A program made the translations under genes and the position numbers. The notes beneath the pieces are model-generated. The model was not told the DNA's origin, did no database searches, and worked only from the letters and a program-made list of their open reading frames with translations. This document shows positions 17,581 through 44,773 of a stretch of DNA of 64,000 nucleotides, piece after piece. The stretch is from Ruegeria marina (GTDB lineage: Bacteria; Pseudomonadota; Alphaproteobacteria; Rhodobacterales; Rhodobacteraceae): NCBI RefSeq assembly GCF_900101475.1, contig NZ_FMZV01000011.1, positions 1 to 64,000 on the forward strand, in the 5' to 3' direction. How positions within the stretch are numbered: position 1 is the first letter of the stretch; every line of letters begins with the position of its first letter.

Positions 17581-17586
17581 GGAAGG

Positions 17587-21169: not shown

Positions 21170-22462
21170 CTAGCCGACGGTGCTTCCGAGCCAAAGCGTG
21201 ATCGCGGGAAAGGCAACCAGCACGGCAAGGCGAAGCACATCAACAGAGATAAAGGGTACGAGGCCTTTGAATATCCGAACCACCGGAACGTCGGGCAGGA
21301 CGGCCTTGAGGACGAACACGTTCATTCCGACGGGTGGCGTGACCAGTGCGATCTCGGTCACGACGATCACGATGATCCCAAACCAGACCAGATCGAATCC
21401 TTGCGCGACGACGATGGGCGCAAAGAGCGGTACGAAGATCAGGATGATCGCCATCGAATCCATCACGCAGCCCAGCACGAGGAATACGAGCATGATCGCG
21501 AAGATCAGCGCATAGCCTTCGAGGCCCGTTGACTGGACAAGAGCGAGGACCCCCGCGGCCAGACCTGACAAGGTCAGGAGCTTGGACAGCATGAGCGCAC
21601 CAAACAGAACCGTGTAGAGCGACACCGATGTATAGGCTGTGTCGATGATGACCCTGCGTAACACCGTCCAGGTTAGCCGACCGTGGAAGGTGGCAATCAG
21701 GATCGCGAGGCCCGCGCCCATGCCGGCCGCTTCGGTCGGGGTGAAAAGCTTGGCATATAGACCGCCGATGATAAGGCCGAACAGGAGGATGAACGGCCAG
21801 ATGCCCGATAGAGCCTTAAGCTTTTCCGGCCAGGGTGTCTTTTCACCCTGGGGGGCGTGGTCGGGATTGCGGGCAGCGACAAATCGGATGGCAAGCATGT
21901 AGAGTGCGAGCCCGAGCAGACCGGGAACCACACCTGCAATGAACAGATCGCCAATATTGGTTTGGGTCAGGATGCCGTAAACCACCATGATGATCGACGG
22001 CGGGATAAGTATCCCGAGCGTACCGCCTGCGGCGATCGTGCCTGCGGCCAGTTCATCGGAATAATGGTACTTCTTCATGCTGGGGTAGGCGACTTTGGCC
22101 ATGGTAGCCGCAGTGGCGTAACTCGACCCGCAGACAGCCGAGAACCCGGAACAGGCCACCATTGTCGACAGAGCGAGGCCGCCGCGTACGTGGCCGACAA
22201 AGGCGTAAGCCGCGCGGAAAAGGTCGTGGGCGATGCCGGTCTTGGAAATCACGTTGCCCATCAGGATGAACATAGGCACGACCGCGAGGTCATAGGACAA
22301 AACCGCATCGGAGATGGTTAATGGCAGCAACTGCAAGGCGATGTTCCAGTTGATGGCAAATCCGATCCCGGCAACAGAAACGGCCAACAACGAAAAGGCG
22401 AGGGGCACCCGCAGAAAGGCCAGCAGGATGGCCGCAAGCATGGAAATGGAGCCGACGATCAT
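21170..22462 (-). CDS. dctM: TRAP transporter large permease (DctM type)
   Basis: A 430-residue polytopic membrane protein with the DctM signatures GGTLGILIPPSIIMVVYGIL and LVTPPVGMNVFVLKAVLPD. Its start overlaps the small permease stop by 4 bases. It is the last gene of an operon that begins with an M20D amidohydrolase (25284), so the transported solute is likely to be that enzyme's substrate, an N-acyl amino acid such as hippurate. That link is inference from operon structure. Confidence 0.92.
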   Translation of the reverse strand: MIVGSISMLAAILLAFLRVPLAFSLLAVSVAGIGFAINWNIALQLLPLTISDAVLSYDLAVVPMFILMGNVISKTGIAHDLFRAAYAFVGHVRGGLALSTMVACSGFSAVCGSSYATAATMAKVAYPSMKKYHYSDELAAGTIAAGGTLGILIPPSIIMVVYGILTQTNIGDLFIAGVVPGLLGLALYMLAIRFVAARNPDHAPQGEKTPWPEKLKALSGIWPFILLFGLIIGGLYAKLFTPTEAAGMGAGLAILIATFHGRLTWTVLRRVIIDTAYTSVSLYTVLFGALMLSKLLTLSGLAAGVLALVQSTGLEGYALIFAIMLVFLVLGCVMDSMAIILIFVPLFAPIVVAQGFDLVWFGIIVIVVTEIALVTPPVGMNVFVLKAVLPDVPVVRIFKGLVPFISVDVLRLAVLVAFPAITLWLGSTVG

Positions 22463-22959
22463 AGTGCTTCCTCCTCATGGGTGTCTTCGGGATCGACCAT
22501 CGGGCCGGAAAAGGCGATGGCAAGTGCGGCAAGAGCGGACAACGCACAGCTCGCGGCCATGAAGAAATAGAGCGGCGCCCTTGGTACGCGGAGAGCCTGG
22601 CTGACCTCCGAGATGCGCGAGGCGTTCAGTCCGTGCTGGACGAAGAGCCAGGCGATAAGTGCCAGAACTGCGGTCACGAGGACGCTGATCAGAACGCGCC
22701 ACCACGCCATCCAGGGCTTGTTCACGAGTTTGTCGGCCAAGTCGATCGTCAGATGCGCACCGGCGGTCGTCACCAGCGGAAGGCCGGCAAAAACAACCAA
22801 CGCCATCAGATGCTCTGTGATGTCATTGGCCCCGTAGATTGGCTTGCCGACGATCCTGCGGCCTATGACGTCTGCGAAGGTCAGCGCGACCATTGCCAGG
22901 AGGAACAGTGCCATGACTGTTTCAACTCCCCGGCGGATATTCCATGCCATGGACAGCAT
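22459..22959 (-). CDS. dctQ: TRAP transporter small permease (DctQ type)
   Basis: A 166-residue membrane protein with four hydrophobic segments; LALVTFADVIGRR-like features are present (FLLAMVALTFADVIGRRIVG). The start at 22959 is downstream of GGGAGGAG. It pairs with the large permease at 22462 and follows the binding protein gene after a strong hairpin. Confidence 0.88.
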   Translation of the reverse strand: MLSMAWNIRRGVETVMALFLLAMVALTFADVIGRRIVGKPIYGANDITEHLMALVVFAGLPLVTTAGAHLTIDLADKLVNKPWMAWWRVLISVLVTAVLALIAWLFVQHGLNASRISEVSQALRVPRAPLYFFMAASCALSALAALAIAFSGPMVDPEDTHEEEAL

Positions 22960-22979
22960 GATCCTGTCTCCTCCCAAAG

Positions 22980-23005
22980 GCGGGAGCCGGAAAACCGGCC
23001 CCCGC
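22980..23005 (-). repeat. Intercistronic hairpin after dctP
   Basis: Arms 22980-22990 and 22995-23005 form an 11-bp stem with one G-U pair and a four-base loop, in the gap between the binding-protein and small-permease genes. There is no T-run, so mRNA stabilisation or attenuation is more likely than termination. Confidence 0.6.
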
Positions 23006-23013
23006 TGTGCTGC

Positions 23014-24066
23014 TTACTGAGACACAGGCACGGCGGATTGCGGTGCGAGCGACTTGTAGGTGTCGTTGTAGAACCTCAGCATCGCCTGAGGGTCTGCGAC
23101 GCCCGCGGCTTTGGCGGCATCCACCCAATCGGCAACCATGGTGTCGTAGATCGTATCCACTGCTGCGATCAGTTCCGGCGAAGCGTCCACGATCTCATGA
23201 CCGGCCGCGCCCAGCTTTTCGATGGCGGCGGGGTTTTGAAGATCGAAGTTCTTGCCCCAGGCGGCCGAAAGCTCTTCGCCGATGATCCCTTCGATGGCAG
23301 CCTTGTCCTGGTCGGAAAGACCATCCCACTTGGCACCGTTCATGATGACGAAGAAGGTCGCGTCATAGAAGCCATTGGGGAAAATGGTGTGGTGTTCAAG
23401 GCTGTCTTCGAGGCGGAAGTTTACCACGGATTCCATGGTGTGAAGCGACCCGTCGATGACACCGCTTTCCAGCATCTCATATGCTTTCGTCGCAGGTGCG
23501 GCGACTGGAACAGCGCCCAGCGAGGACAACAGTTTTTCCTGGATCGGTCCGCCCATGCGGAATTTGACGTTGGCCAAATCCTCGGGTGCGGTCACTGTCT
23601 TGGACCCATGGTGCAGTTGGCCGCCACCGAACATGCCGACGGCAAGCATCTTCACACCTTCAAAGGCCGCGTTGCCGGCCAAATGCGCCTCATAGGTCCG
23701 CCACAGCGCCCGGCTTTGAGCTTCGGCATGGGTGCCGGCATTCGGGAACTCGGCGAACCACATCGACACGAAACGTTCGGGCTCATAAGTGAAGTTGCCC
23801 CAGGTGATGTCCGCGACACCGTTGCGGGCCAGTTCCCAGTGTTGCGGCGGGCTGGCCAGCGGCGCGGGCAGGATCGTAACCGTGACGCGACCTTCTGTGG
23901 CTTCTGCGACCTTCTCGGTGAAGGGGACAAGGAAATCGGTGTGCACGAAGTGCGTCGGCGGCACCCAGGACGACATGGTGAGCGTCTCGGCACTGGCCAT
24001 CGTGCCGGCCATCATGGCCGATGCAGCAACGGCGCCCTTGAGCATGGATTTGGTGAAGGTGATCAT
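23014..24066 (-). CDS. dctP: TRAP transporter solute-binding protein (DctP type)
   Basis: A 350-residue periplasmic protein. GGGAGG precedes the ATG. The signal peptide is about 26 residues (ITFTKSMLKGAVAASAMMAG then TMASA). The mature protein begins ETLTMSSWVPPTHFVHTDFLVPF, and AEDLANVKFRMGGPIQEKL-type elements (about 160-180) are normal for the family. The gene lies 27 bases after the M20D amidohydrolase gene and before the two permease genes, giving a complete uptake system for that enzyme's probable substrate. Confidence 0.9.
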   Translation of the reverse strand: MITFTKSMLKGAVAASAMMAGTMASAETLTMSSWVPPTHFVHTDFLVPFTEKVAEATEGRVTVTILPAPLASPPQHWELARNGVADITWGNFTYEPERFVSMWFAEFPNAGTHAEAQSRALWRTYEAHLAGNAAFEGVKMLAVGMFGGGQLHHGSKTVTAPEDLANVKFRMGGPIQEKLLSSLGAVPVAAPATKAYEMLESGVIDGSLHTMESVVNFRLEDSLEHHTIFPNGFYDATFFVIMNGAKWDGLSDQDKAAIEGIIGEELSAAWGKNFDLQNPAAIEKLGAAGHEIVDASPELIAAVDTIYDTMVADWVDAAKAAGVADPQAMLRFYNDTYKSLAPQSAVPVSQ

Positions 24067-24093
24067 CTGGATCCTCCCTTGGATGATATGGGT

Positions 24094-25284
24094 TTATGTC
24101 AGTTGGTGAGAGTTGAGCGTCGCGCTCGTTCGGAGCTTTGCCAGATCGGCAAAGATAGCGGCTCCGACCGGGATGATTTCCGGATCGAAGACGAATTCGG
24201 GGTGGTGCGGTGCGTAGCCGTCCTGACCAATAAAGAAGTAGGCGCCGGGCACTATGGCCGAGAGTTCCGAGAAATCCTCGGAGGCCATGAGGCTGCGAGC
24301 GTTCTCGGTCACCCGGTTTGGTCCAACGACCCGGGTTGCCGCAGCCACGGCCGCAGCGACGCAGGCAGAATCATTCAGCGTGACTGGCACCATGCGGACC
24401 ACATCGATCTCGATGAGGACGCGAAAGAGCAGTTCGGTTGCGCGCACCGCGTCCTGCAGCAAATCGGCCAGCGTGTCGCGCACCTCGGGGGCCGTGGTGC
24501 GCATGGTCCCCTCGATCCGGACGGTGTCGGGCAGGATGTTCCGTGCCGTGCCGCCCTGCATCAAGCCAAAAGAGATGACACCGGTATGGCGCGCGTCAAA
24601 GCTGCGCGTGGCGGCCTGTTGGACAGATGAGATCAGGTGGGCGGCGGCCGCGATGGCGTCTTGCCCTGTATGCGGCATCGACCCATGTGCGCCCTGCGCT
24701 CTTATCGTGATGTCGATATTGTCGGCAGAGGACAGCGCTGCCGTCGCTGGTACGCCGATCTGACCGGCAGGCAGGTCCGGTGAGTTGTGCAGGGCGTAGA
24801 TTTCATCGCAGGGAAACCGGTCGAAGAGACCATCTGCGATCATGGCACGTGCACCGGTCAGCAGTTCCTCGGCGGGCTGAAAGATGAAGCGAATCGTGCC
24901 GTCGAAATCCCGATGCGCCGCGAGATAGGCGGCGGCCGTGATCGCGGTGACCATGTGTCCGTCATGCCCGCAGCCGTGGAACCGAGCGGGAACTTCGGAC
25001 GCGTAACTGACCGTGGATTTTTCCTGCATCGGCAGCGCATCAAGTTCTGCCCGGAAGGCGATACAGCGGCCGGGTGCCTCAAGTGACGCACCTGGACCAT
25101 GCAAGGTCCCGACGACACCCGTGCCGCCAATGCCAGTCGCTACGGTATATCCGAGGTCGGTCAACCGTTCCGCGACAAAGGCCGCGGTTCGCACTTCTTC
25201 GAACCCGGTTTCGGGGTGGCGATGCAGGGTCTCCAGCCAGTCTTGCGACGTTTTGCGTTGCGTCTCGTACCAGGTGGTGAACAT
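24094..25284 (-). CDS. M20D amidohydrolase, hippurate hydrolase/N-acyl amino acid type
   Basis: A 396-residue metallo-amidohydrolase. The start at 25284 (MFTTWYETQRKTS) has GGAG upstream. Metal and catalytic residues of the M20D family are visible: Cys105 and His107 in HGCGHDGHM, Glu139-Glu140 in FQPAEE, His166 in YALHNSPDLPAGQIG, and the C-terminal LMASEDFSEL. The first acidic motif reads RAELDALPM. The family cleaves hippurate (benzoylglycine) and other N-acyl amino acids to a carboxylate and a free amino acid. Neighbours argue for hippurate: glycine-riboswitch-controlled glycine genes follow across the MarR gene and benzoate genes come next. Substrate not provable from sequence alone. Confidence 0.85.
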   Translation of the reverse strand: MFTTWYETQRKTSQDWLETLHRHPETGFEEVRTAAFVAERLTDLGYTVATGIGGTGVVGTLHGPGASLEAPGRCIAFRAELDALPMQEKSTVSYASEVPARFHGCGHDGHMVTAITAAAYLAAHRDFDGTIRFIFQPAEELLTGARAMIADGLFDRFPCDEIYALHNSPDLPAGQIGVPATAALSSADNIDITIRAQGAHGSMPHTGQDAIAAAAHLISSVQQAATRSFDARHTGVISFGLMQGGTARNILPDTVRIEGTMRTTAPEVRDTLADLLQDAVRATELLFRVLIEIDVVRMVPVTLNDSACVAAAVAAATRVVGPNRVTENARSLMASEDFSELSAIVPGAYFFIGQDGYAPHHPEFVFDPEIIPVGAAIFADLAKLRTSATLNSHQLT

Positions 25285-25345
25285 CTGCGTGGGCTCCAAT
25301 TCATCGCAATGTGAGAATATTGCGCGGCGATACTTGTCCGGCAAG

Positions 25346-25366
25346 ATAGTTTCTTGTTAAGACTAT
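25346..25366. promoter_or_regulatory. Candidate MarR operator, site 1
   Basis: A near-palindrome with ATAGT and ACTAT ends spans 25346-25366, in the gap between the amidohydrolase and marR genes. Read toward the amidohydrolase it matches site 2 (25920-25940) at 17 of 21 positions, both containing ATAGTCTT and GAAACTA in the same spacing. A shared site in two promoters beside a MarR gene points to that protein as the binder. Confidence 0.7.
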
Positions 25367-25426
25367 TTCGCGTGAAAATCAGGGTAAGACGTGATACCTT
25401 TTGGGTATCGAGGGCAGGAGCAGCAG

Positions 25427-25918
25427 ATGGCGCAGAACGACAGGACATTCAAAAACGAACGCCTGACTTACAGGTTGAACATCGTTGCCCAAGAGGCGAT
25501 CCAGGCCAATGACCAGATCTTCCTGAGTGAGACGGGATGCCGGATTCGCGATCTGCGTGTGTTGCGCCTGATTGACGATTGGCCGGGCACTACGTTTGCA
25601 GAAATCGCAAAAATAACGGGTTTTGATAGAAGTTTGACGTCCAGAATCATTCAGAACCTGATTGGCGCGGGTCTGATCGAGCGCGAAAACTCCAGTGAAG
25701 ATGCGCGGGTATTCCTGCTTTCCACGACCCAAAAAGGTAAGGAGGTTCGACAAGTGGCGCGCCGTTTGTCGGATCGGCTGGAGGTGATCCTGACGGACCC
25801 GCTGTCTGCACAGGAGATGCGAGCCTTCAACGAAATCCTTGCCCGTCTTGGCGCTTGGGTGACCTCGGAAGAATATCGAGATGCGCTGACTCATGAGACG
25901 CAAAAAGACGCAAAATAA
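25427..25918 (+). CDS. MarR-family transcriptional regulator
   Basis: A 163-residue MarR protein; the ATG at 25427 follows AGGAG. The winged HTH is TTFAEIAKITGFDRSLTSRIIQNLIGAGLIERENSSEDARVFLLSTTQKG in the usual place (about 57-108), flanked by dimerisation helices. It is divergent from the amidohydrolase-TRAP operon and ends just before the riboswitch operon. Two copies of one palindrome flank it. MarR proteins in aromatic catabolism commonly respond to an aromatic acid or its CoA ester; hippurate or benzoate is a plausible effector here. Confidence 0.87.
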   Translation: MAQNDRTFKNERLTYRLNIVAQEAIQANDQIFLSETGCRIRDLRVLRLIDDWPGTTFAEIAKITGFDRSLTSRIIQNLIGAGLIERENSSEDARVFLLSTTQKGKEVRQVARRLSDRLEVILTDPLSAQEMRAFNEILARLGAWVTSEEYRDALTHETQKDAK

Positions 25919-25919
25919 A

Positions 25920-25940
25920 ATAGTCTTGACGTGAAACTAA
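25920..25940. promoter_or_regulatory. Candidate MarR operator, site 2, overlapping a promoter
   Basis: This site starts 2 bases after the marR stop. It contains ATAGTCTTGAC-GT-GAAACTAA and matches site 1 read toward the amidohydrolase at 17 of 21 bases. It includes TTGACG (25926-25931), a good -35 element for transcription into the glycine riboswitch, so bound repressor would block that promoter. The corresponding position in site 1 is TTAACA. Confidence 0.7.
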
Positions 25941-25975
25941 TCTCGCATTAAGCCTTTTGTAGCCTACCAAGCTAT

Positions 25976-26044
25976 CACAGGAGAGGCCGATCATTCGGCG
26001 CCGAAGGAGCAACCCCCCGGAACCTCTCAGGCAAAAGGACTGTG
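25976..26044 (+). ncRNA. Glycine riboswitch aptamer (single)
   Basis: The conserved core of the glycine aptamer is present in order: GGAGAGG (from 25980), GCGCCGAAGGAGCAA (25999-26013), CCTCTCAGGCAAAAGGAC (26023-26040). P1 is CACAG (25976-25980) with CTGTG (26040-26044). Only one aptamer is seen before the gene starting at 26153. An anti-Shine-Dalgarno pairing is possible further down: CCCGCGA (26089-26095) with TCGCGGG (26138-26144), covering part of the GGGAGG ribosome-binding site (26142-26147). Translational control is therefore likely. The downstream enzymes use glycine, which supports an ON-switch. Confidence 0.9.
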
Positions 26045-26152
26045 ACTGGCGCGGCGATCTGAAGCGCGCTGCGGACCTGTATCCGTATCCCGCGACAGAG
26101 GGGATTGGACCTGTCATCCGGCAGGACGAAACCTGGGTCGCGGGAGGATGCC

Positions 26153-27436
26153 ATGACCAGAATAGCCGTAATCGGCGCCGGAATCACCGGCGTGACCACT
26201 GCCTCGAGCCTGATGGACAGGGGCTATGAGGTCACCTTGTTCGATCGCAACCGTTATGCAGCGATGCAAACGTCATTCGCCAATGGCGGGCAGCTGTCCG
26301 CATCGAATGCAGAAACCTGGAACCGGTGGTCCACCGTTTTCAAAGGCATGAAATGGATGATGACGCGGGGCGCGCCGCTGTTGGTCAACCCCAAACCCAG
26401 TTGGCACAAGTACAGCTGGATGGCCGAGTTCGTGGCGTCGATCCCGCAGTATCGCGCCAATACCGTCGAGACGACCCGGATGGCCATCGCCGCGCGCGGG
26501 CTTCTGCGCGAGAAAGCCGAGCGCCACGGGTTCGACTTCGACTGCGAAGACCGCGGCATACTGCACATCTATACGAACAAGGCGGAATTCGACCATGCCA
26601 CGGAGGTCAACAAGCTGCTCGCTGAGGGCGGTCTCGACCGGCGCGCCGTGGCACCCGACGAAGTACGTCAGATCGAGCCGGCATTGAGTGGGGATTTCTA
26701 CGGCGGGTACTATACCGAGAGCGATTTCACCGGCGACATTCACCGCTACACGACGGGTCTCGCCAAATCCATCGAACGGGGCGGTGCGGTGCTGCGGTTT
26801 GGAACAGATGTCGCCGCGCTGAATGTGGACCAGAACGAGGTGCGCCTGACCTGGAGCCGAAACAACGAAAGCCAGACCGAAACCTTCGACGCCATCGTCG
26901 TCTGTGCCGGTGTCGAAAGCCGGGCTATCGCGGCGCGGCTTGGCGACCGGGTGAACGTTTACCCGGTCAAGGGCTATTCCATCACCGTGCGCCTCGATGA
27001 CGAGGAAAGCCAGCGCGCGGCCCCCTGGATCAGCCTGCTCGACGACGAGGCGAAGGTCGTGACCAGCCGCCTTGGCAAAGATCGCTTCCGGATCGCCGGC
27101 ACGGCGGAATTCAACGGCTGCAACCTCGATATCCGGGATGATCGCATTCGCCCGCTGGTCAAGTGGTGCGAGCGTTTCTTCCCCTCCGTCAGCACCGAGC
27201 ACGCGATTCCCTGGGCCGGTTTGCGGCCGATGATGCCGAACATGATGCCCAAGGTGGGGCAGGGTGTTCGGGACCGTGTATTCTACAATACCGGGCATGG
27301 GCACCTGGGCTGGACCTTGTCTGCGGTAACGGCAGAGATGGTGGCGGAGACCGTCGCGAAATCCCGGACGGTCAACGGGTCCAACGGTGCATCGGTAGGG
27401 GCCCCTGCCACTCTGAGAGCACAGGAGGCCATGTGA
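26153..27436 (+). CDS. DadA-like FAD amino acid dehydrogenase (proposed glycine oxidase role)
   Basis: A 427-residue FAD protein of the DadA/D-amino acid dehydrogenase family. The start at 26153 follows GGGAGG. The ADP-binding motif is RIAVIGAGITGVTTASSL, the family segment SFANGGQLSASNAETWNRW follows, and the C-terminus has GLRPMMPNMMPKVG and NTGHGHLGWTLS. The family passes electrons to quinones while deaminating D-amino acids or glycine-like substrates. A glycine riboswitch precedes it and bhcB overlaps its stop codon. I infer that it converts glycine to glyoxylate, which the next enzymes need. D-alanine remains an alternative substrate. Confidence 0.85.
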   Translation: MTRIAVIGAGITGVTTASSLMDRGYEVTLFDRNRYAAMQTSFANGGQLSASNAETWNRWSTVFKGMKWMMTRGAPLLVNPKPSWHKYSWMAEFVASIPQYRANTVETTRMAIAARGLLREKAERHGFDFDCEDRGILHIYTNKAEFDHATEVNKLLAEGGLDRRAVAPDEVRQIEPALSGDFYGGYYTESDFTGDIHRYTTGLAKSIERGGAVLRFGTDVAALNVDQNEVRLTWSRNNESQTETFDAIVVCAGVESRAIAARLGDRVNVYPVKGYSITVRLDDEESQRAAPWISLLDDEAKVVTSRLGKDRFRIAGTAEFNGCNLDIRDDRIRPLVKWCERFFPSVSTEHAIPWAGLRPMMPNMMPKVGQGVRDRVFYNTGHGHLGWTLSAVTAEMVAETVAKSRTVNGSNGASVGAPATLRAQEAM

Positions 27437-28389
27437 TGGACATTCCTTCCTACGACGACATGCTCGCCGCACATGTCCGGATCGCACCGTATATCCGCCG
27501 CACCCCGGTGCGGACATCGGATTACCTTAGCGAATTGGCCGGGTGCCAGCTGTTCTTCAAATGCGAGAACTTTCAGGAACCCGGCGCGTTCAAGGTCCGC
27601 GGGGCAACCAACGCGGTATTTGGCCTGGATGAGGCTCAAGCCGCGAAAGGTGTGGCAACGCATTCTTCGGGCAACCACGCCTCGTGCCTGAGTTACGCCG
27701 CCATGCTGCGCGGCATTCCCTGCAACGTGGTGATGCCGCGCACCGCGCCGCAGGCCAAGAAAGACACGGTCCGGCGCTATGGTGGCATGATCACCGAATG
27801 CGAGCCCTCAACCACCTCGCGCGAGGCGACCTTTGCCAAAGTGCAGGAGGCCACGGGCGGCGATTTCGTGCATCCCTACAACGATCCACGCGTGATCGCG
27901 GGCCAGGGAACCTGTTCGAAGGAGTTCATGGAGCAAACGGATGGGCTCGACATGGTTGTGGCCCCGATCGGAGGGGGCGGCATGATCTCGGGCACCTGCT
28001 TGACGCTCTCGACACTGGCACCTGAAACCCAGGTCATCGCAGCCGAGCCTGAACAGGCGGACGACGCCTATCGCAGCTTCAAGGCCGGGCACATCATCGC
28101 CGATGACGCGCCCAAGACCATCGCCGACGGGCTCTTGGTTCCGCTCAAGGACCTGACCTGGCATTTCGTGTCGAACCATGTGTCCGAGATCTACACGGCC
28201 TCGGAACAGGAGATCATCGATGCGATGAAGCTGGTCTGGAAGCACCTGCGCGTGGTCATGGAACCTTCAAGCGCCGTGCCTCTGGCCACGATCCTCAAGC
28301 ACCCGGAAGCGTTCAAGGGCAAGCGCGTCGGCGTGATCATCACCGGCGGCAACGTCGATCTGGACAAACTGCCCTGGATACTGGGCTAG
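27436..28389 (+). CDS. bhcB: Beta-hydroxyaspartate dehydratase (BhcB)
   Basis: A 317-residue PLP enzyme of the serine/threonine dehydratase family (fold II). PLP Lys53 lies in PGAFKVRGATNA, the phosphate loop is GGGGM in APIGGGGMISGT, and HSSGNHASCLSYAAM is the substrate loop. By recall the whole chain closely resembles BhcB of Paracoccus denitrificans, which turns beta-hydroxyaspartate into iminosuccinate. The ATG overlaps the stop of the previous gene (TGATG). The neighbours bhcC and bhcD give the other two steps. General serine dehydratase activity is less likely given this set. Confidence 0.88.
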   Translation: MDIPSYDDMLAAHVRIAPYIRRTPVRTSDYLSELAGCQLFFKCENFQEPGAFKVRGATNAVFGLDEAQAAKGVATHSSGNHASCLSYAAMLRGIPCNVVMPRTAPQAKKDTVRRYGGMITECEPSTTSREATFAKVQEATGGDFVHPYNDPRVIAGQGTCSKEFMEQTDGLDMVVAPIGGGGMISGTCLTLSTLAPETQVIAAEPEQADDAYRSFKAGHIIADDAPKTIADGLLVPLKDLTWHFVSNHVSEIYTASEQEIIDAMKLVWKHLRVVMEPSSAVPLATILKHPEAFKGKRVGVIITGGNVDLDKLPWILG

Positions 28390-28403
28390 ACAGGAGAATT
28401 CCC

Positions 28404-30679: not shown

Positions 30680-30803
30680 GCGCGCACGGCACCCGCCATA
30701 TGTCTCGCCAGGGTATCACCCGAGACCCGCCCAATCATCGACAGAATCCGGGTCGTCCGGGCAATTTGCATGGAAACGAAACCTGTAGATGTGGTGAGCC
30801 CCA

Positions 30804-31952: not shown

Positions 31953-32024
31953 GCCCGCGACACCCCAACAAAACCAGCCAAGGCGCACGACCAGGTGCTG
32001 AGGCCGTCAGGAGGAGGACCAAAA

Positions 32025-33413: not shown

Positions 33414-33425
33414 GGAGGAACGACA

Positions 33426-33950: not shown

Positions 33951-34023
33951 TCCCACACCTGCGGACCCCGCAACGAACCTCCGCGCATCGACCCCCGGTG
34001 CGCGGCCAAGGGAGGAGCATGCC

Positions 34024-37036: not shown

Positions 37037-37042
37037 CCAAGC

Positions 37043-37072
37043 TGACCCGGCTGCTTGCCTGCAGCCGGGTCA
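37043..37072 (+). repeat. Intercistronic hairpin after the HAAT binding-protein gene
   Basis: A perfect 12-bp stem (TGACCCGGCTGC at 37043-37054, GCAGCCGGGTCA at 37061-37072) with a six-base loop begins 7 bases after the binding-protein stop. It has no T-run. It probably protects the upstream mRNA segment. Confidence 0.75.
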
Positions 37073-37096
37073 AGAACGTCCGAGGAGGACCCGACA

Positions 37097-37966: not shown

Positions 37967-37970
37967 GCAG

Positions 37971-38969
37971 ATGTTTCGTCACAACACCCTTCGCTACGTC
38001 GCTCTGATCCTCCTGGCGGCCGGAGCCCTCTTTCAGGCTTTCACAGCCGAGTACTTCGGATTGGAGATCCTGACCGAAATCCTGATCCTCGCCATGCTGG
38101 TTCTGGCGCTCGACATCGTGGCGGGCTTTGGTGGCATGGTATCGCTCTGCCACGGTGCTCTGATGGGGGGCGGGGCCTATGCCTATGCGATCTTCACGAC
38201 CAAAGCCGGGATCGCACCACCCGTGGCCATGGCTGGCGCTATCGCCCTGACCGGGGCAGCCGCCTGGGTAATCGGTGCCATCGGCTCGCGCAGCCACGGC
38301 ATCTATTTCATCATGGCGACTCTTGCTTTTGGGCAAATGGCCTATTCCTACGTTTTCGAGACTCCGATCTTTGGCGGTGACGACGGCCTGGGCGGCATAT
38401 CCCGGCTGGACCTGAGCTTCATTGGTGTCGATCTGAACGACAGTCGCAGCTTTGCGCTTTTCTGTCTGGCTGTGCTCGGCACTGTCTATGGCACATCGGT
38501 GGTCATCCTGCGCTCCGGCCTGGGCCGCTCGCTTACCGGCGTGATGCATAACGAACAGCGCATGCGGGCACTTGGCCTGACGGTCTGGCGGGTCAAGGCG
38601 GATGTCTTCGGCTTGTCCGGCATGATTGCCGGTCTCGCAGGTGCGCTGGCCGCCCAGCATATCATGTACATCTCGCCGGGGCTTCTCAGCTGGACCGTCT
38701 CTGGCGAGGCGCTTGTGGTTGTGATCCTCGGTGGACTTGGAACGCTTGTCGGACCGTTGATCGGAGCGGCCGCTTTCGTGGTTCTGAAACATGAGCTGAG
38801 TTCCGTGACGACCTATTGGCACCTTGTTGTCGGCGTCATCCTGATCGCCGTCGTGATGAGCCGCGCCAATGGCATTTTCGGCTGGATCGAGGCCCGCTGG
38901 GGTGACAGGCTCGACCGTCGTCTAGCCGATGCCACCCGCAAGACCGAGGAGGTTCTGACCGATGCTTGA
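37971..38969 (+). CDS. HAAT ABC transporter permease (LivM type)
   Basis: A 332-residue membrane protein with the LivM pattern: ILAMLVLALDIVAGFGGMVSLCHGALMGGGAYAYA near the N-terminus, LTGVMHNEQRMRALGLTVWRVK as the cytoplasmic loop and VVILGGLGTLVGPLIGAAAF near the end. It overlaps the ATPase gene by 8 bases. Confidence 0.9.
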   Translation: MFRHNTLRYVALILLAAGALFQAFTAEYFGLEILTEILILAMLVLALDIVAGFGGMVSLCHGALMGGGAYAYAIFTTKAGIAPPVAMAGAIALTGAAAWVIGAIGSRSHGIYFIMATLAFGQMAYSYVFETPIFGGDDGLGGISRLDLSFIGVDLNDSRSFALFCLAVLGTVYGTSVVILRSGLGRSLTGVMHNEQRMRALGLTVWRVKADVFGLSGMIAGLAGALAAQHIMYISPGLLSWTVSGEALVVVILGGLGTLVGPLIGAAAFVVLKHELSSVTTYWHLVVGVILIAVVMSRANGIFGWIEARWGDRLDRRLADATRKTEEVLTDA

Positions 38970-39705
38970 GACACGCAACCTGGATAAAAGCTTTGGCGCC
39001 GTTCACGTCACACGCAACGTGTCGCTGAAACTGGAACGTGGCGAGCGCCGTGTGATCCTGGGCCCGAATGGTGCGGGCAAGACCACGCTCTTCAACCAAT
39101 TGGTTGGTGAACTGACGCCCGACAGCGGGTCGGTCCATCTGGCTGGTGAGGATGTCACCGCGCTGCCCGTTGCCAAGCGCGCGCGGCGCGGGTTGTCGCG
39201 CAGCTATCAGAAGAACACGCTTTTCGATGGCCTCACGGTCGAGGAAAACCTCGGGCTTGCGGCGGCAGTCCACACCGGCCATGCAACGCGGCTCTGGTCG
39301 GACAGCCTGTCCAAACCCGAGGTGCGTGAGATCGTCGGAGAGGTGGCCGAACAGGTCAAGCTGATGCCGTTCCTTCATGCAAAGGTTTCCGAGATCAGCT
39401 ATGGTGTGCGCCGCCAGCTTGAGGTTGGCGTGGCTTTGGCGACGCGGCCTTTGGTCCTGCTGATGGACGAACCGACAAGCGGCGTCGGGCCGGAAATGTC
39501 CAAAGGGTTCCACGACCTGCTGAACAACCTGCCGCGCGACCTGACCATGCTGATCATCGAGCATGACATGGACCTTGCCTTCGATGTGGCGGACACGATC
39601 ACGGTGCTGAACTACGGCGAAGTCGTTTTTGACGGTCTGCCAGAAAAAGCGCGCGGGTCGAGCCTGCTCAAGGAGATTTATCTGGGGAGCTGGGAAAATG
39701 CTTGA
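38962..39705 (+). CDS. HAAT ABC transporter ATPase (LivG type)
   Basis: A 247-residue ABC ATPase. Walker A is GPNGAGKTT and Walker B is LVLLMDEPTSGVG; the signature region reads EISYGVRRQLEVG, a divergent LSGGQ normal in LivG proteins. It pairs with the LivF-type ATPase, whose start overlaps this stop. Confidence 0.9.
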   Translation: MLETRNLDKSFGAVHVTRNVSLKLERGERRVILGPNGAGKTTLFNQLVGELTPDSGSVHLAGEDVTALPVAKRARRGLSRSYQKNTLFDGLTVEENLGLAAAVHTGHATRLWSDSLSKPEVREIVGEVAEQVKLMPFLHAKVSEISYGVRRQLEVGVALATRPLVLLMDEPTSGVGPEMSKGFHDLLNNLPRDLTMLIIEHDMDLAFDVADTITVLNYGEVVFDGLPEKARGSSLLKEIYLGSWENA

Positions 39706-40396
39706 ACTGAACTCAATCGAGTCCGGCTACGGAGAGACGCAGGTCCTCTACGGACTGACTCTGACAGCCCGGACAGGGCGCGTGCTCGCTATTCTCGGGC
39801 GCAACGGTGCCGGCAAATCCACGACGCTGAAAACGATCATGGGCTTATTGCCGCGCAAATCCGGCGAGATCCTTTTCGAGGGTAAGCCGATTGCGGCGCA
39901 ACCCTTCGACATTGCCAGAAGCGGGATCGCCTATGTGCCCGAGACACGCGATATCTTCCCGTCGCTGAGCGTTCGCGAAAACCTTGAAATCGCGGCCAAG
40001 CGGTTTGGCGGTTCCAACCCCGAGTGGACGATGGACAGGGTGCTGGACCTGTTCCCGAGACTGAGCGAGCGCATGGACAACGGCGGGACGCAACTATCAG
40101 GTGGCGAGCAGCAGATGCTGGCCATCGCGCGCGGCCTTTTGATGAACCCCAAGCTCTTGATCCTGGATGAGCCGACGGAAGGTCTGGCCCCGATCATCGT
40201 CAAGCTGATCCACGACAAACTGCAGGAGCTGAAAGAGGCGGGGCTGTCGATGATCATCGTCGAACAGAACTTTGGCTTTGCCACCTCTCTTGCCGATGAC
40301 GTGGTTGTGGTCAGCAAGGGTCAGATCGTCTGGACCGGCAATGCGGATCAGATCAAGGCCGATGAAGAGGCGCAACACACCTGGCTTGGGGTGTGA
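39698..40396 (+). CDS. HAAT ABC transporter ATPase (LivF type)
   Basis: A 232-residue ABC ATPase, start at 39698 (MLELNSIESGYGETQVLYGL). Walker A is GRNGAGKST, the signature QLSGGEQQM and Walker B LLILDEPTEGLAP. It is the last gene of the catB-benABCD-transporter transcript; a hairpin follows. Confidence 0.9.
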   Translation: MLELNSIESGYGETQVLYGLTLTARTGRVLAILGRNGAGKSTTLKTIMGLLPRKSGEILFEGKPIAAQPFDIARSGIAYVPETRDIFPSLSVRENLEIAAKRFGGSNPEWTMDRVLDLFPRLSERMDNGGTQLSGGEQQMLAIARGLLMNPKLLILDEPTEGLAPIIVKLIHDKLQELKEAGLSMIIVEQNFGFATSLADDVVVVSKGQIVWTGNADQIKADEEAQHTWLGV

Positions 40397-40402
40397 GGCC
40401 GA

Positions 40403-40441
40403 CGTGCAGGGCAGTCACGCCCTGCACGGAGGTCACTTTTT
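40403..40441 (+). terminator. Hairpin with T-run after the transport operon
   Basis: A perfect 10-bp stem (CGTGCAGGGC at 40403-40412, GCCCTGCACG at 40419-40428) with a six-base loop. A T-run (about 40437-40441) follows after eight bases, so termination efficiency is uncertain. It lies between the convergent transport operon and LysR gene. Confidence 0.6.
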
Positions 40442-41332
40442 CATGGGGCTCTTTCGCGCCACTTTCTGAGCCACGGTAACGAAATTCTTGACGTGCACGC
40501 CTTGTTCGTCGAGGCGGTAGTTCACAGAGAGTTCGGTCCGCGCGATCTCCGGCTCGATATTGAGAAACTTCATGCCCTTGCGCGGGGCGTTGGCGACAGA
40601 CTCTGGAACGATACACACACCTTCCCCGACGGCCACCAGGCTCAGTGCCGTTTGCAGATCCATGCACCAAATTCGAAGCGGTGCCTTGAACCCCGCGTCT
40701 TCGATCGCTTTCAATACCATGTCGGCATAGCTGGGCCGAGGTCGTTCCGGATACAGGATCAGATTGTGTGTCATCAGCCGTTCAAGCTTGGCAACAGTTC
40801 GCGAGTCGGTGTCGACGATGTCGGGTAAAGCCAGGATCAGCTTTTCTTCCATGAGATGTTTCGACAGGAATTCGGGATCTTTCAGCGTCGGGCGGGCGAA
40901 TGCCACATCGATTTCGCGAGAGACGAGCGCCCTGTGCAGCTCTGCATTGTTCATGGGAACGAGGCTAAGGTTCACCTGCGGATAATTCGCGCGATAGGAC
41001 CGGATGATGTTTGGCAGAATTCCGAATGTCGCCGAGCCCACGAACCCGATCCTGAGCCGCCCTTCTGCCCCCTGTCCGAGGCGGCGCACTTCCAGTTGTG
41101 TATCTTCGAGCTCTGCGAGGATTGACTTGCCCCGCTTTAGCAACCGTTCACCGGCCTGTGTCAGGGTGATCGCGCTGCGGCCTCTGTTGAACAGAACGGC
41201 TTCCAGCTCCTCCTCGAGTTGCTTGATCTGTCGGCTGAGTGGCGGTTGCGCCATGTCGAGGCGCTCGGCCGCGCGGCCAAAATGCATTTCCTCGGCAACC
41301 GCGATGAAATAGGTCAGCTGTTTGAAATTCAT
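40433..41332 (-). CDS. LysR-family regulator, CatR/BenM-like
   Basis: A 299-residue LysR protein whose HTH is MHFGRAAERLDMAQPPLSRQIKQLEEEL (about 16-43), a form common to CatR, BenM and CbnR. The effector domain follows. It lies between the benzoate operon and catA and probably activates one or both in response to muconate or benzoate; this is inferred from position and family. It reads in the same direction as catA but is separated from it by a terminator. Confidence 0.85.
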   Translation of the reverse strand: MNFKQLTYFIAVAEEMHFGRAAERLDMAQPPLSRQIKQLEEELEAVLFNRGRSAITLTQAGERLLKRGKSILAELEDTQLEVRRLGQGAEGRLRIGFVGSATFGILPNIIRSYRANYPQVNLSLVPMNNAELHRALVSREIDVAFARPTLKDPEFLSKHLMEEKLILALPDIVDTDSRTVAKLERLMTHNLILYPERPRPSYADMVLKAIEDAGFKAPLRIWCMDLQTALSLVAVGEGVCIVPESVANAPRKGMKFLNIEPEIARTELSVNYRLDEQGVHVKNFVTVAQKVARKSPMKK

Positions 41333-41378
41333 TTTTGCCGTCCTCCCAAGGCCTTACGTTAGGCGATACCTCCACACG

Positions 41379-41406
41379 AAAAAAGGCCCCCGTATCAACG
41401 GGGGCC
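41379..41406 (-). terminator. Intrinsic terminator after catA
   Basis: On the minus strand, GGCCCCCGT (41406-41398) pairs with ACGGGGGCC (41393-41385), a perfect 9-bp stem with a four-base loop, followed by six T (41384-41379). It ends the catA transcript before the LysR gene. Confidence 0.9.
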
Positions 41407-41429
41407 AGTGTTCAGAAAGGTATCGGGGA

Positions 41430-42305
41430 TTACTCAGCGGCGATGGCCTTTTCCTCGGCCGCGGTCTTGAGAACGAAGTCAAACTCGAAATGCAGGTCGG
41501 TGCCCAGTTCGGCTGCAGCCGGCTTGAACTTGCCGATCAGGCTTTCCTTGACCGCGAACACGCTGTCATTTTCCAGCCATTCGCTGTCGGCGTCGTAGAT
41601 CTGGCTGATCAGCGGGCGGTAGCCATCTTTCGAGATGATGAAGTGCATGTGTCCGGGGCGGTTCGGGTGGTGACCCATGAAGCGCAGCAACTCGCCTGCG
41701 GTTTCATCGTCCGGGATCGGATAGGGCACCGGACGCACGGCGACAAATGCGTAGTGGCCGTTCTCGTCGGTCTCGAACCGGCCGCGCAGATTGTATTCGG
41801 GTTGATCGGGGTCAAGGTTCTCGTAGATTCCGTTCGGTGCGTCTTCCCAGACGTCCAGCGTCACACCGGCGATGCCGTTGCCGTTCTCGTCCTTGATGTA
41901 ACCTTCGTAGTAGGCGGTCTCTTCGTTGTCGTAATGCTTCTGGATGGTCGAGCCGCCCTTGGGCAGGACCGGCGGATTCTCGCGGTAGAACGGCCCCAGA
42001 ACGGTGGATTCGCTTTCATTTCCTTCGACCGGGTTGGTCATCATGTCGACCAGAACTTCGACGCCGAGGATGTCGCCCAGCAGGATGAATTCCTGGCGGT
42101 TGTCGTTGCAGAGCTTGCCGGCGCGGGCGAGGTAGTCGCAGACGAACAGGAATTCGTCGTGCTGCAGTTTCACGTCCTTGATGAAGGCGTGCAGATGCTT
42201 GACCAGGCCGGTCGCGAGTTCGCGCTGGCGGTCTGTGATGTCGCCATGCTTGCCGAGGCTCGCGATCACGACGTCGGTGATGTTGTCTTGGTTGACGATG
42301 CCCAT
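41430..42305 (-). CDS. catA: Intradiol ring-cleavage dioxygenase, probable catechol 1,2-dioxygenase
   Basis: A 291-residue intradiol dioxygenase with an N-terminal dimerisation domain (to about residue 100). The start at 42305 follows GAGGAGG. Fe(III) ligands by family alignment are Tyr161 (NGIYEN), Tyr195 (VPYPIP), His219 and His221 (RPGHMHF). It opens catechol to cis,cis-muconate. The RFMGHHPNRPGHMHF stretch also recalls hydroxyquinol dioxygenases, so catechol is assigned mainly because catB and benABCD are nearby. Confidence 0.82.
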   Translation of the reverse strand: MGIVNQDNITDVVIASLGKHGDITDRQRELATGLVKHLHAFIKDVKLQHDEFLFVCDYLARAGKLCNDNRQEFILLGDILGVEVLVDMMTNPVEGNESESTVLGPFYRENPPVLPKGGSTIQKHYDNEETAYYEGYIKDENGNGIAGVTLDVWEDAPNGIYENLDPDQPEYNLRGRFETDENGHYAFVAVRPVPYPIPDDETAGELLRFMGHHPNRPGHMHFIISKDGYRPLISQIYDADSEWLENDSVFAVKESLIGKFKPAAAELGTDLHFEFDFVLKTAAEEKAIAAE

Positions 42306-42550
42306 GGGTAGTTCCTCCTCCTGGCAGTCTGAATATCCGGTAGCGAGTTGCGTTAATGCCCCTCGTCGAAAACCAGACTTTGCCGAAACCCTGGCCTTAC
42401 CCAATGCCTGCGGGGGTATCGGGTGATACCAACGGTGACTCGACTATAGCGCATATGGCGACTCACGAAAGATCTCAGGGCAGAGTATTGACCCATACCC
42501 TCGCTGGCATAGCCCATGGGCCCATGATCGTGGCAGCTATTCCCCAGCTT

Positions 42551-42952
42551 ATGAACGCATGGGAGGCCAAGGTGATCGATACCTTCAAGCAAATCCAAAC
42601 GCGCCTTGAGGCAACACCGCACTTGTTGCGCCTCGGTCGGTTGTTTTCCGAAACCTTGCTCATCGAAGTGGGTGGCGATGAATTCTACCTGTCCTTTGAG
42701 AAGGGGCGCATTGTCTCGGTGGTCGAAGGTCCCAGCCGCAAGACACCTTGGCGTTTCGCGTTGCGGACCGATGCCGAGGCGCTGAACAAGTTCTGGCAGG
42801 CGCGGCCCGAGCCGGGTTTCCATGACATCTTCGGGCTGGTGAAGATCGGTCGTGGCCGGATCGACGGCGACATCCTGTGCCTCGTCAAGAACCTGCGCTT
42901 CGTCAAGGAAGTACTGACACTCGCCCGCGCAAAAGAGGAGTTGGCAGCATGA
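42551..42952 (+). CDS. Unrecognised small protein, possibly SCP2-like
   Basis: A 133-residue protein from the ATG at 42551 (MNAWEAKVIDTFKQIQTRLE); longer in-frame starts exist at 42455 and 42524, and no clear ribosome-binding site decides. The middle, LLIEVGGDEFYLSFEKGRIVSVVEGPSRKTPWRFALR, suggests an alpha/beta lipid-carrier-like fold, but I cannot name a family with certainty. It overlaps the next hydrolase by 4 bases and is divergent from catA, so it belongs to the aromatic catabolic set. It occupies the place where a muconolactone isomerase would be expected but shows no CatC features. Confidence 0.55.
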   Translation: MNAWEAKVIDTFKQIQTRLEATPHLLRLGRLFSETLLIEVGGDEFYLSFEKGRIVSVVEGPSRKTPWRFALRTDAEALNKFWQARPEPGFHDIFGLVKIGRGRIDGDILCLVKNLRFVKEVLTLARAKEELAA

Positions 42953-43806
42953 GCATCGAACCGATCACCGGCCGTTATGTCACCGTCACCGTGGGCGGTG
43001 CCCTGCGCCGCATCTATTTCGAAGAGGCCGGGCAGGGGCGTCCTGTCATCTGCCTGCACACCGCCGGGGCCGATACCCGCCAATGGCGCCATCTCTTGAA
43101 CGATGCCGAGATCACCGCATCCAACCGCCTGATCGCCTTTGACATGCCCTGGCACGGCAAGTCGCTGCCGCCGGAAGGGTTCGAGATGCAGGAATACCTG
43201 CTGACGACCGAAGCCTATATCGAGACCGTACTGGCGGTGATCGAGGGGCTGGGCCTCGATCGACCCGTCCTCGCGGGCTGTTCGATGGGTGGACGTATCG
43301 CGTTGCAACTGGCGGCGCTTCACCCGGACAAGTTCAGCGGGTTCATTGCCATTGAGGCCTCTGACTTCCAGCCCGCCTGGTACGATATCGACTGGTTCCA
43401 CCGCCCTGATGCCCATGGCGGCGAGATGGGCGCTGCCTTGGTATCCGCGAATATTTCGCCCTATGCGCCGAATACCGAACGCTGGAACACGCTGTGGATG
43501 TTCATGCAAAGCGGTCCGGGTGTTTTCCGGGGCGATCTGAGCTTTTACACCAAGGACGACAGCCTGATCCCGCGCCTGTCCAAGATAGATACGAGTGCCA
43601 CGCCCGTTCACATCATCGTCGGCGCCTATGACCTGACCTGCACACCTGAAGACGCGGAGCGTACGGCCAAGGCCATTCCCGGTGCCACTTTGGCTGTGAT
43701 GGACGAGCTCGGCCACTTTCCGATGAGCGAGCATCCCGAGGGCTTCCGCCCATTCTTTGTCGAGGCGCTGGAAAAGATGCCCGTTGCCAGCGCAAAGGCT
43801 GCATGA
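42949..43806 (+). CDS. Alpha/beta hydrolase, candidate 3-oxoadipate enol-lactonase
   Basis: A 285-residue alpha/beta hydrolase. The nucleophile elbow is GCSMGG (Ser112), the oxyanion region CLHTAGADTRQW, the acid in IIVGAYDLTCTPEDA and the His in DELGHFPMSEHPEGF. The ATG overlaps the preceding gene by 4 bases, and the stop overlaps the next. Context (CatA and CatB upstream in the pathway, a beta-keto acid cleavage enzyme next) suggests PcaD-type hydrolysis of an enol-lactone, but the sequence alone fits many carboxylesterases. Confidence 0.7.
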   Translation: MSIEPITGRYVTVTVGGALRRIYFEEAGQGRPVICLHTAGADTRQWRHLLNDAEITASNRLIAFDMPWHGKSLPPEGFEMQEYLLTTEAYIETVLAVIEGLGLDRPVLAGCSMGGRIALQLAALHPDKFSGFIAIEASDFQPAWYDIDWFHRPDAHGGEMGAALVSANISPYAPNTERWNTLWMFMQSGPGVFRGDLSFYTKDDSLIPRLSKIDTSATPVHIIVGAYDLTCTPEDAERTAKAIPGATLAVMDELGHFPMSEHPEGFRPFFVEALEKMPVASAKAA

Positions 43807-44669
43807 CGATGACCAAACCTTGCATAATCTGCGTGGCGATCACGGGCAGTTTGCCGACGAAAGCCAATAACCCGGCCGTTCCGATCACGGTATCGGAACA
43901 GGTGGAATCGACTCAGGAGGCCTTTGAGGCCGGAGCCACCATTGTTCATGCCCATGTGCGTAACGATGATGAGACTCCATCTTCCGATCCGGAGAAGTTC
44001 GCCGCGCTGAAAGAGGGGATTGAGAAACATTGCCCCGGCATGATTATCCAGTTCTCGACCGGGGGGCGGTCAGGCGCCGGTCGGACACGAGGTGGGATGT
44101 TGCCGCTTTCGCCGGACATGGCCTCCCTGTCCGTCGGATCGAACAACTTCCCGACACGCGTTTACGAAAACCCGCCTGATCTGGTGGACTGGCTGGCCAG
44201 CGAAATGCTGACCTATGATGTCAAACCGGAGATCGAAGCTTTCGACCTGAGCCATATCCTGAAAGCCAGGGACATGGCCGACAAGGGTCAGCTTGCGGGG
44301 ACGCCTTACATCCAGTTCGTTATGGGTGTGAAGAACGCGATGCCGGTCGATCGCGATGTGTTCGAATACTACATTCACACGGTGCATCGCCTCTTCGGCG
44401 AAGACGCGCCTTGGTGTGCCGCAGGCATCGGAGCCAATCAGCTCAAACTCAACGAATGGGCCATCGCCGCAGGTGGTCATGCCCGGACCGGGCTCGAGGA
44501 CAATGTCCGCCTTGACCGCGACACGCTCGCCCCCAGCAACGCCGCGCTGGTCCGTAGGGCCGCGGACATCTGTGACAGGAACAACCGCCCCGTGGCGAGC
44601 TGGCAAGAGGCACGCCGCATTCTTGGACTGCGCCTGCCCGAGGACAACAGGAACGGACAGGCGGCATGA
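43803..44669 (+). CDS. BKACE-family beta-keto acid cleavage enzyme
   Basis: A 288-residue TIM-barrel enzyme of the BKACE family (formerly DUF849), which condenses a beta-keto acid with acetyl-CoA and releases acetoacetate and a new acyl-CoA. Zinc ligands are in VHAHVRNDDE and RTGLEDNVRL. Next to catechol genes, 3-oxoadipate is the attractive substrate, giving succinyl-CoA and acetoacetate and bypassing PcaIJ and PcaF. Dehydrocarnitine is a known alternative for the family. A CoA-transferase remnant follows. Confidence 0.85.
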   Translation: MTMTKPCIICVAITGSLPTKANNPAVPITVSEQVESTQEAFEAGATIVHAHVRNDDETPSSDPEKFAALKEGIEKHCPGMIIQFSTGGRSGAGRTRGGMLPLSPDMASLSVGSNNFPTRVYENPPDLVDWLASEMLTYDVKPEIEAFDLSHILKARDMADKGQLAGTPYIQFVMGVKNAMPVDRDVFEYYIHTVHRLFGEDAPWCAAGIGANQLKLNEWAIAAGGHARTGLEDNVRLDRDTLAPSNAALVRRAADICDRNNRPVASWQEARRILGLRLPEDNRNGQAA

Positions 44670-44773
44670 AGAATGTCTATGCCAACGCCACCGAAGCGCT
44701 CGACGGAGTGCTGCGGGACGGCATGCAGATCGCGGCGGTCGGGTTCAGCCTGACCGTGATGTCACCGGCATGA
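44666..44773 (+). pseudogene. 3-oxoacid CoA-transferase subunit A, N-terminal fragment
   Basis: Directly overlapping the BKACE stop, an ATG opens a 35-residue frame MKNVYANATEALDGVLRDGM followed by QIAAVGFSL, which is the N-terminus of a succinyl-CoA:3-ketoacid CoA-transferase alpha subunit. It ends after TVMSPA and the rest is gone. A CoA-transferase would have activated the acetoacetate made by the BKACE enzyme, so the intact ancestor made metabolic sense here. Confidence 0.7.

Follow-up and report, generated by a model that had tools for sequence, protein, structure and literature searches.

A putative hippurate utilisation island in Ruegeria marina joins amidase, glycine and benzoate genes

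Why should genes for glycine metabolism stand between an amidase gene and the genes of benzoate degradation? The question is raised by a stretch of 64,000 nucleotides from Ruegeria marina (contig NZ_FMZV01000011.1, positions 1 to 64,000; G000:C15:1-64000 in our numbering, from a genome of 4.99 Mb in 51 contigs), hereafter the window. Here a TRAP transporter, an M20 amidohydrolase, a MarR regulator, a glycine riboswitch, an FAD oxidase, bhcBCD of the beta-hydroxyaspartate cycle and catB-benABCD succeed one another, followed by transporter, regulator and catechol genes (Table 1). A preliminary description had read this region as an island in which hippurate (benzoylglycine) is split and each half is sent to a dedicated route. 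Gene identities were assigned with NCBIfam and Pfam family models and their curated cut-offs, and the riboswitch with Rfam RF00504. The models bore out the earlier gene list with small corrections, recognising BhcB, BhcC, BhcD, BenA to BenD, CatB, the M20 amidohydrolase, TRAP, MarR and the riboswitch; the gene called catA matches Dioxygenase_N and Dioxygenase_C of Pfam but scores below the CatA equivalog cut-offs. Overlooked at that stage were the lack of bhcA in the island, the lack of catC in the genome and an extra gene encoding a protein of 126 amino acids. We consider it probable that the island serves hippurate utilisation. More tentatively, and with somewhat less than even confidence, we propose that it holds a riboswitch-led route from two glycines to aspartate that is fed by a glycine oxidase and dispenses with BhcA, together with a muconolactone isomerase that is not homologous to CatC and stands in for it in one group of benzoate-degrading alphaproteobacteria. 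Hippurate cleavage, benzoate and hydroxyaspartate enzymes are known parts in a new combination; the more surprising proposals are a bhc route fed by an oxidase and a substitute for CatC.

In the proposed pathway, hippurate would enter through the TRAP system, which we infer to be its importer, and would be cleaved by the M20 amidohydrolase into benzoate and glycine. Benzoate would be converted to catechol by BenABCD, catechol to muconolactone by the intradiol dioxygenase and CatB, and muconolactone to 3-oxoadipate by the 126-amino-acid protein and the alpha/beta hydrolase, in place of CatC and CatD; BKACE would then turn 3-oxoadipate and acetyl-CoA into succinyl-CoA and acetoacetate. Glycine would be sensed by the riboswitch, one molecule would be oxidised by the FAD oxidase to glyoxylate and ammonia, BhcC would combine this glyoxylate with another glycine, and the conversion to aspartate would be completed by BhcB and BhcD. 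Palindromes would connect the promoter of the amidase gene with the catabolic operons.

The amidohydrolase (ATG start inferred at 25284, with a TTG at 25344) contains the motifs GCGHDGH, QPAEE, HN and HHPEF, which we take to form the metal site, and its closest solved structures are YxeP and the plant indole-3-acetic acid (IAA)-amino acid hydrolase ILL2. These motifs and a TIGR01891 score above cut-off are common to M20 amidohydrolases such as hippurate hydrolase, YxeP and the plant IAA-amino acid hydrolases; by contrast, the clade of the island amidase is tied to benzoate genes, and its activity on hippurate is proposed from sequence. The enzyme was searched for in assembled-genome contigs (best 80 loci), 394 genomes of the family, five genomes of the genus, that of R. 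marina among them, and a plasmid collection. Matches at 68-89% identity stand apart, the remainder being one at 49% and others at or below 46%. Eleven orthologue loci with 49-100% amidase identity were compared: the window, G099, G163, G279, G186, G299, G330, L009 (Nioella sediminis), L010 (Leisingera ANG59), L219/L267 (Leisingera caerulea) and L011 (the Prado209 metagenome-assembled genome, at 49%). In G330 the amidase gene is cut by a contig edge. The marR gene adjoins the amidase gene in all 11 loci, and TRAP genes do so in all ten that are not interrupted there by a contig end. Within the covered stretches, benA and/or catB occur in nine of the 11 (about 23 kb off in L. caerulea), and the riboswitch with the FAD oxidase in eight; in Leisingera ANG59 the benzoate part is represented just by the hydrolase and BKACE at the end of the stretch. 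The order recurs in other genera, so the chance that it was unique to this strain, which the preliminary description had named as a ground for refutation, is excluded. At E<=1e-20, no match to catB, benA, the oxidase or marR was found in any of 77 control loci with amidases of 35-45% identity (L012-L088, some on short contigs); bhcB, bhcC, benD or transporter genes are matched at 25-42% in a few of them. A second control of six family loci at 43-46% amidase identity likewise gave no match to catB, benA, the oxidase or marR (0/6; E<=1e-15). Between amidase-TRAP and the hydrolase and BKACE genes, Leisingera ANG59 has a pair of FAD aromatic hydroxylases (L010 14910-18999; PRK08132 and PRK08294, above cut-off), a layout that is possibly a hydroxyhippurate variant; L. 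caerulea has two FAD monooxygenases at the corresponding position.

The glycine half of the island departs from the canonical set. No bhcA lies in the island; the genome's single copy above cut-off belongs to a canonical bhcABCD locus at G000:C13, which makes the bhcBCD of the island an additional set. BhcC above cut-off was found outside the island in all eight genomes checked, with the adjoining bhcA looked at in G000 alone. In the canonical cycle BhcA converts glyoxylate to glycine. With glycine as the input, an oxidase that makes glyoxylate from glycine would complete the substrate pair of BhcC, and BhcA would be dispensable because glycine, not glyoxylate, is what comes in. The FAD oxidase occupies the operon position of bhcA and has two PDB matches at E<=1e-10, both of them glycine oxidases. 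We infer that it is a glycine oxidase feeding BhcBCD, so that the route would be linear and two glycines would yield aspartate. The island resembles the beta-hydroxyaspartate cycle in the presence and order of BhcB, BhcC and BhcD, each above its equivalog cut-off, and differs from it in having a riboswitch-led FAD oxidase instead of BhcA, in that its input would be glycine and in that its course would be linear.

Relatives of the oxidase at E<=1e-130 occur in 43 of the 394 family genomes. A scan for the riboswitch covered 30 of these 43 and found a glycine riboswitch upstream of the oxidase gene at every homologue locus scanned (30/30; 62-100% identity), compared with none at 20 control loci (GcvT-domain and amidase genes) and none at seven bhcC loci outside islands. 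In genomes without benzoate genes, the oxidase has no common partner among the ten frames scanned with a crude gene caller. A tree of island and non-island BhcBCD copies pairs the island copies of G000 and G099 (100/100). The G299 island copy falls outside this pair, yet within a five-row group (100/99) that holds both as well as non-island copies of G099 and Leisingera, and the approximately unbiased test does not reject a single clade made up of the three island copies (p-AU 0.087). Because the second copies of G000 and G299 themselves lie outside the five-row group, simple duplication within the genome is unlikely in these two; the G099 island copy may have arisen in that way.

The riboswitch leader is predicted to fold into the aptamer and then a hairpin, the 3' arm of which extends to the ribosome-binding site of the oxidase gene. 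In an alignment of nine leaders, nine of the 41 predicted pairs are preserved by changes in both partners (eight in the aptamer, one in the inner stem of the hairpin), and the single-sequence z-score is -2.2. Control of translation is plausible, and we assume an ON switch. The aptamer family is that of the riboswitches of glycine cleavage genes, whereas the island aptamer precedes an FAD oxidase gene, with bhcBCD, and not gcv genes. The oxidase stop codon overlaps the bhcB start (TGATG), and ATGA overlaps join the genes for the 126-amino-acid protein, the hydrolase and BKACE; both groups therefore look translationally coupled.

The palindrome GGTAT-N6-ATACC, with at most one mismatch, has five sites in the window against 0.38 expected: one between the amidase gene and marR, one 5' of catB, two in the gap between catA and the 126-amino-acid gene, and one inside the oxidase gene that is probably there by chance. 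The sites at amidase/marR, catB and catA/126-amino-acid gene recur in relatives having those genes. A second palindrome, of MarR type, flanks marR, at 25346 and 25920; the case for it consists of the likeness of these two sites and their occurrence in relatives. The arrangement suggests one regulon that includes the amidase, and the assignment of regulator proteins to the palindromes is a guess. A MarR operator sought with a degenerate pattern was set aside: the two sites around marR that fit the pattern perfectly are those from which it was drawn, and its three matches with at most three mismatches, against 1.7 expected, are at chance level.

The benzoate half has a gap of its own. No CatC was found with TIGR03221 in any of eight genomes or with PF02426 in G000, and the candidates for CatA and CatD belong to the correct Pfam families with scores below the equivalog cut-offs. 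The 126-amino-acid protein, which has no NCBIfam, Pfam or PDB match, is proposed to supply the missing muconolactone-isomerase step together with the hydrolase. Across the 394 family genomes, catB occurs in 30, the 126-amino-acid protein in 33 (E<=1e-8) and both in 25; the protein is thus present in 25 of 30 catB genomes and in 8 of the 364 others (Fisher p 8e-28, a value that overstates the association because the genomes are related). PF02426 exceeds its cut-off in 18 of the 394. Among the 30 catB genomes, 23 have the 126-amino-acid protein without CatC, two have both (G130 and G239), two have CatC alone (G023 and G171), and three have neither (G254, G361 and G367), for which we offer no explanation. 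The eight genomes with the protein and no catB comprise six weak matches and two strong ones (G005 and G113). G130 has two catechol clusters (C2, L214; C169, L204), one with catB beside catC and the other with catB near the 126-amino-acid gene, and offers a natural comparison.

The plasmid collection was surveyed for the best 60 of 135 catB matches, the best 60 of 141 CatC matches and all 35 records of the 126-amino-acid protein. The best 13 catB records (at least 64% identity) all have the 126-amino-acid protein and none is among the CatC matches listed; none of the catB matches ranked 14 to 60 has it (0/47), and 37 of these 47 are among the 60 CatC matches listed. Of the 35 records of the protein, 22 are not among the catB matches listed. 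Three rhizobial operons, those of Rhizobium hidalgonense, R. jaguaris and Shinella, run from catA (59-61%) through a catB match (38%), the 126-amino-acid gene and the hydrolase gene to lysR, so that the pair fills the catC and catD positions. The protein shares with CatC (PF02426) this position, and differs from it in matching no CatC model and in its length of 126 as against about 90 residues. In Sagittula stellata, cycloisomerase and dioxygenase genes are divergent from the pair. Xanthobacter and Ancylobacter have the pair without a catA or catB match in the covered stretch, and in other bacteria distant pairs lie near succinate-semialdehyde dehydrogenase genes; the pair is therefore a broader module, and an isomerase role is proposed for its catB-linked form. 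Closer forms of the protein share GPSRKTP-RF (GPSKKIP-QF in one row) and GFHD, which five distant rows lack, two of them keeping HD. A Pfam scan of 31 rows gave two families, each weak and each in one row. Structure prediction for the window and L009 sequences reached a mean pLDDT (predicted local distance difference test) of 50, too poor for a fold search. A Phaeobacter inhibens P88 plasmid (L272) has two nearby sets of dioxygenase, 126-amino-acid gene and hydrolase. The HAAT-type transporter genes also occur in benzoate clusters that lack the amidase (Ruegeria THAF33 and Sulfitobacter D7), and on that ground the ABC transporter is assigned, tentatively, to benzoate.

The gap in the catechol branch has a counterpart in the published record. 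Sulfitobacter D7 can use benzoate as its only source of carbon, and its authors found every gene of the catechol branch but CatC; their paper names a chromosomal BenE as benzoate transporter (PMC9873259). Its plasmid p5SUD7 carries catB-benABCD, transporter, lysR, dioxygenase, 126-amino-acid gene and hydrolase in the island order, the homologue of the 126-amino-acid protein (79% identity) being annotated as a hypothetical protein. The island benzoate genes thus follow the order of this roseobacter ben/cat pathway (PMC9873259), whereas D7 has, beyond these, only a MarR relative (69%) adjoining an 80-residue amidohydrolase fragment (L218 19166-20041), 22 residues of which are 68% identical to the amidase; this looks like a decayed hippurate head, and is likely to be one. 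TRAP, oxidase, bhc and BKACE genes are without a match in the 28-kb D7 stretch. In a search that left most subscription journals outside its reach, we found no literature joining hippurate and hydroxyaspartate, no mention of a glycine oxidase in literature on BhcB and BhcC, and, judging by title, nothing on topic for hippurate in Roseobacter. Glycine riboswitches and a glycine oxidase are both mentioned in PMC12452182, where the glycine oxidase in the available part is thiO under thiamine pyrophosphate riboswitches.

How well does the proposal of a hippurate island stand? Gene content, synteny, the riboswitch and the palindromes before the amidase, catB-ben and catA speak for it; the glycine part has proved modular, with an oxidase in the place of BhcA, and CatC is absent. 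Several observations weigh against it. Complete bhcBCD is found in four of the 11 loci (the window, G099, G299 and G330); in G279 bhcB is shortened and followed by a frame that by inspection resembles an IS3-type transposase, and the benzoate genes of that genome are on a different contig. In G369 the island order of TRAP, marR, riboswitch, oxidase, catB and ben genes is preserved with no amidase in between. Both Leisingera loci and the Prado209 genome have the amidase and MarR with no oxidase match or riboswitch in the covered stretches, and the amidase is absent from the remaining four genomes of the genus, so that the island is sporadic. The oxidase scores 128.8 bits with the ThiO glycine oxidase model TIGR02352, below its cut-off of 250.8, and the score matrix and the pattern for the MarR-type palindrome were both derived from the sites themselves and are circular. 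Of the oxidase gene, G173 keeps just the 3' half, along with ben, catB and bhcDCB; in G153 the gene is broken, riboswitch and bhcBCD are present, and the covered stretch has no benzoate genes. From the layouts of G369, G173 and G153 we conclude that the island is assembled from separable modules, namely an amidase-TRAP-MarR head, a riboswitch-oxidase unit that bhcBCD may or may not accompany, and a benzoate body.

This modularity, with oxidase-bhcBCD alone in G153 and benzoate clusters without an amidase in strains such as Ruegeria THAF33 and Sulfitobacter D7, could be taken to mean that unrelated catabolic modules have become neighbours by chance; the order shared across several genera, the repeated palindromes and the 0/77 controls make this very improbable, and the synteny already contradicts it. 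An amidase acting on another N-aroyl amino acid, whether a hydroxyhippurate or the benzoyl conjugate of a different amino acid, with the glycine genes serving other sources of glycine, would suit the hydroxylases and monooxygenases that follow amidase-TRAP in the two Leisingera loci, where neither oxidase nor riboswitch was seen, and the slightly more frequent company of benzoate genes (9/11) than of the glycine module (8/11). We consider it unlikely, since riboswitch and oxidase stand beside amidase and marR in those eight loci, and in seven of them lead directly to catB or to bhcBCD and catB.

The oxidase itself could be the D-amino acid dehydrogenase that its best family model, PRK12409, names with a score above cut-off, the riboswitch merely reporting nitrogen status. 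Against this stand the riboswitch at all 30 homologues scanned, the glycine oxidases among the PDB matches and the position of bhcA that the gene occupies, and we think it rather improbable. More open to doubt is the role of the 126-amino-acid protein, which could be an accessory or binding subunit of the hydrolase, in which case the isomerisation would be carried out by the hydrolase or some other enzyme, or would be spontaneous. A hydrolase match adjoins its gene in all 27 family loci; distant pairs in Rhodococcus, Peribacillus and Agrobacterium have no catA or catB match in the covered stretch; and a 31-row profile of the protein has a single, weak PDB match to 3cnu (E 0.03), the fold of which we take to be sterol-carrier-like. 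This keeps the accessory role a real possibility, although the gene sits exactly at the catC position in the three rhizobial operons and the closer forms are set off from the distant ones by the two motifs; yet G005 and G113, which lack catB, also have the motif-bearing form. Replacement of CatC by the 126-amino-acid protein with the hydrolase is the reading that we retain for the benzoate half.

Table 1 Features of the putative hippurate island, in window coordinates.
Feature	Position	Strand	Evidence or remark
TRAP transporter dctM-dctQ-dctP	21170..24066	-	NCBIfam dctM, TRAP_S1 above cut-off
M20 amidohydrolase	24094..25284	-	TIGR01891, 323.6 bits (cut-off 153.75)
MarR-type palindrome, amidase-marR gap	25346..25366	.	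binding protein inferred
GGTAT-N6-ATACC-type palindrome, amidase-marR gap	25383..25398	.	1 mismatch
MarR regulator	25427..25918	+	Pfam MarR, MarR_2 above cut-off
Second MarR-type palindrome, 5' of riboswitch	25920..25940	.	
Glycine riboswitch aptamer	25968..26052	+	RF00504, 64.5 bits (above gathering score), E 4e-11
FAD oxidase, annotated D-amino acid dehydrogenase	26153..27436	+	PRK12409, 704.5 bits (cut-off 494); putative glycine oxidase or dehydrogenase
bhcB, beta-hydroxyaspartate dehydratase	27436..28389	+	NF045641, 579 bits (cut-off 550)
bhcC, 3-hydroxyaspartate aldolase	28404..29570	+	NF045642, 730.9 bits (cut-off 690)
bhcD, iminosuccinate reductase	29650..30615	+	NF045643, 586.1 bits (cut-off 500)
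GGTAT-type palindrome, 5' of catB	30712..30727	.	1 mismatch
catB, muconate cycloisomerase	30804..31952	+	TIGR02534, 494.5 bits (cut-off 334.95)
benA-benB-benC-benD	31995..35822	+	TIGR03229, TIGR03232, NF040810, NF040811, each above cut-off
HAAT-type ABC transporter, five genes	35864..40396	+	substrate-binding gene: HAAT models, below cut-off
LysR regulator	40433..41332	-	AlsR, BenM, CatM and other models, all below cut-off
catA-like intradiol dioxygenase	41430..42404	-	Pfam Dioxygenase_N, _C above cut-off; below CatA equivalog cut-offs
Perfect GGTAT-N6-ATACC palindrome between catA and next operon	42415..42430	.	second copy at 42484, 1 mismatch
126-amino-acid protein without family assignment	42572..42952	+	GTG start inferred
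Alpha/beta hydrolase, CatD/PcaD-like	42949..43806	+	PcaD model, below cut-off
BKACE, 3-oxoadipate:acetyl-CoA acetyltransferase	43803..44669	+	NF053568, 497.2 bits (cut-off 350)

At the left edge of the island, a short frame (19992-20513) looks by eye like the tail of a transposase, which, together with the island's sporadic distribution, suggests mobility. Further left lie a phage-integrase-family protein (5003-5908) and a separate catabolic cluster (5933-18609) with an FMN dehydrogenase, a 2-hydroxyacid dehydrogenase, an IlvD/Edd dehydratase, a Glu/Leu dehydrogenase-like protein, a large POR/DUF6537 protein, a beta-lactamase-fold protein and a second TRAP transporter, its binding protein (17587-18609) recognised by eye. 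To the right, 45521-51348 holds a FadH/old-yellow-enzyme-like protein, a frame that by eye is M20-deacylase-like, a LysR regulator and an HpaB-type hydroxylase.

The proposed island would give this alphaproteobacterial group a concrete, testable gene set for the use of hippurate, and would account for the presence of glycine genes within a benzoate cluster. The 126-amino-acid protein is a candidate for the CatC gap that the Sulfitobacter D7 paper reports (PMC9873259), encoded in that strain's own benzoate cluster. The glycine half suggests, moreover, that the swap of one gene may let the hydroxyaspartate enzymes be fed from glycine.

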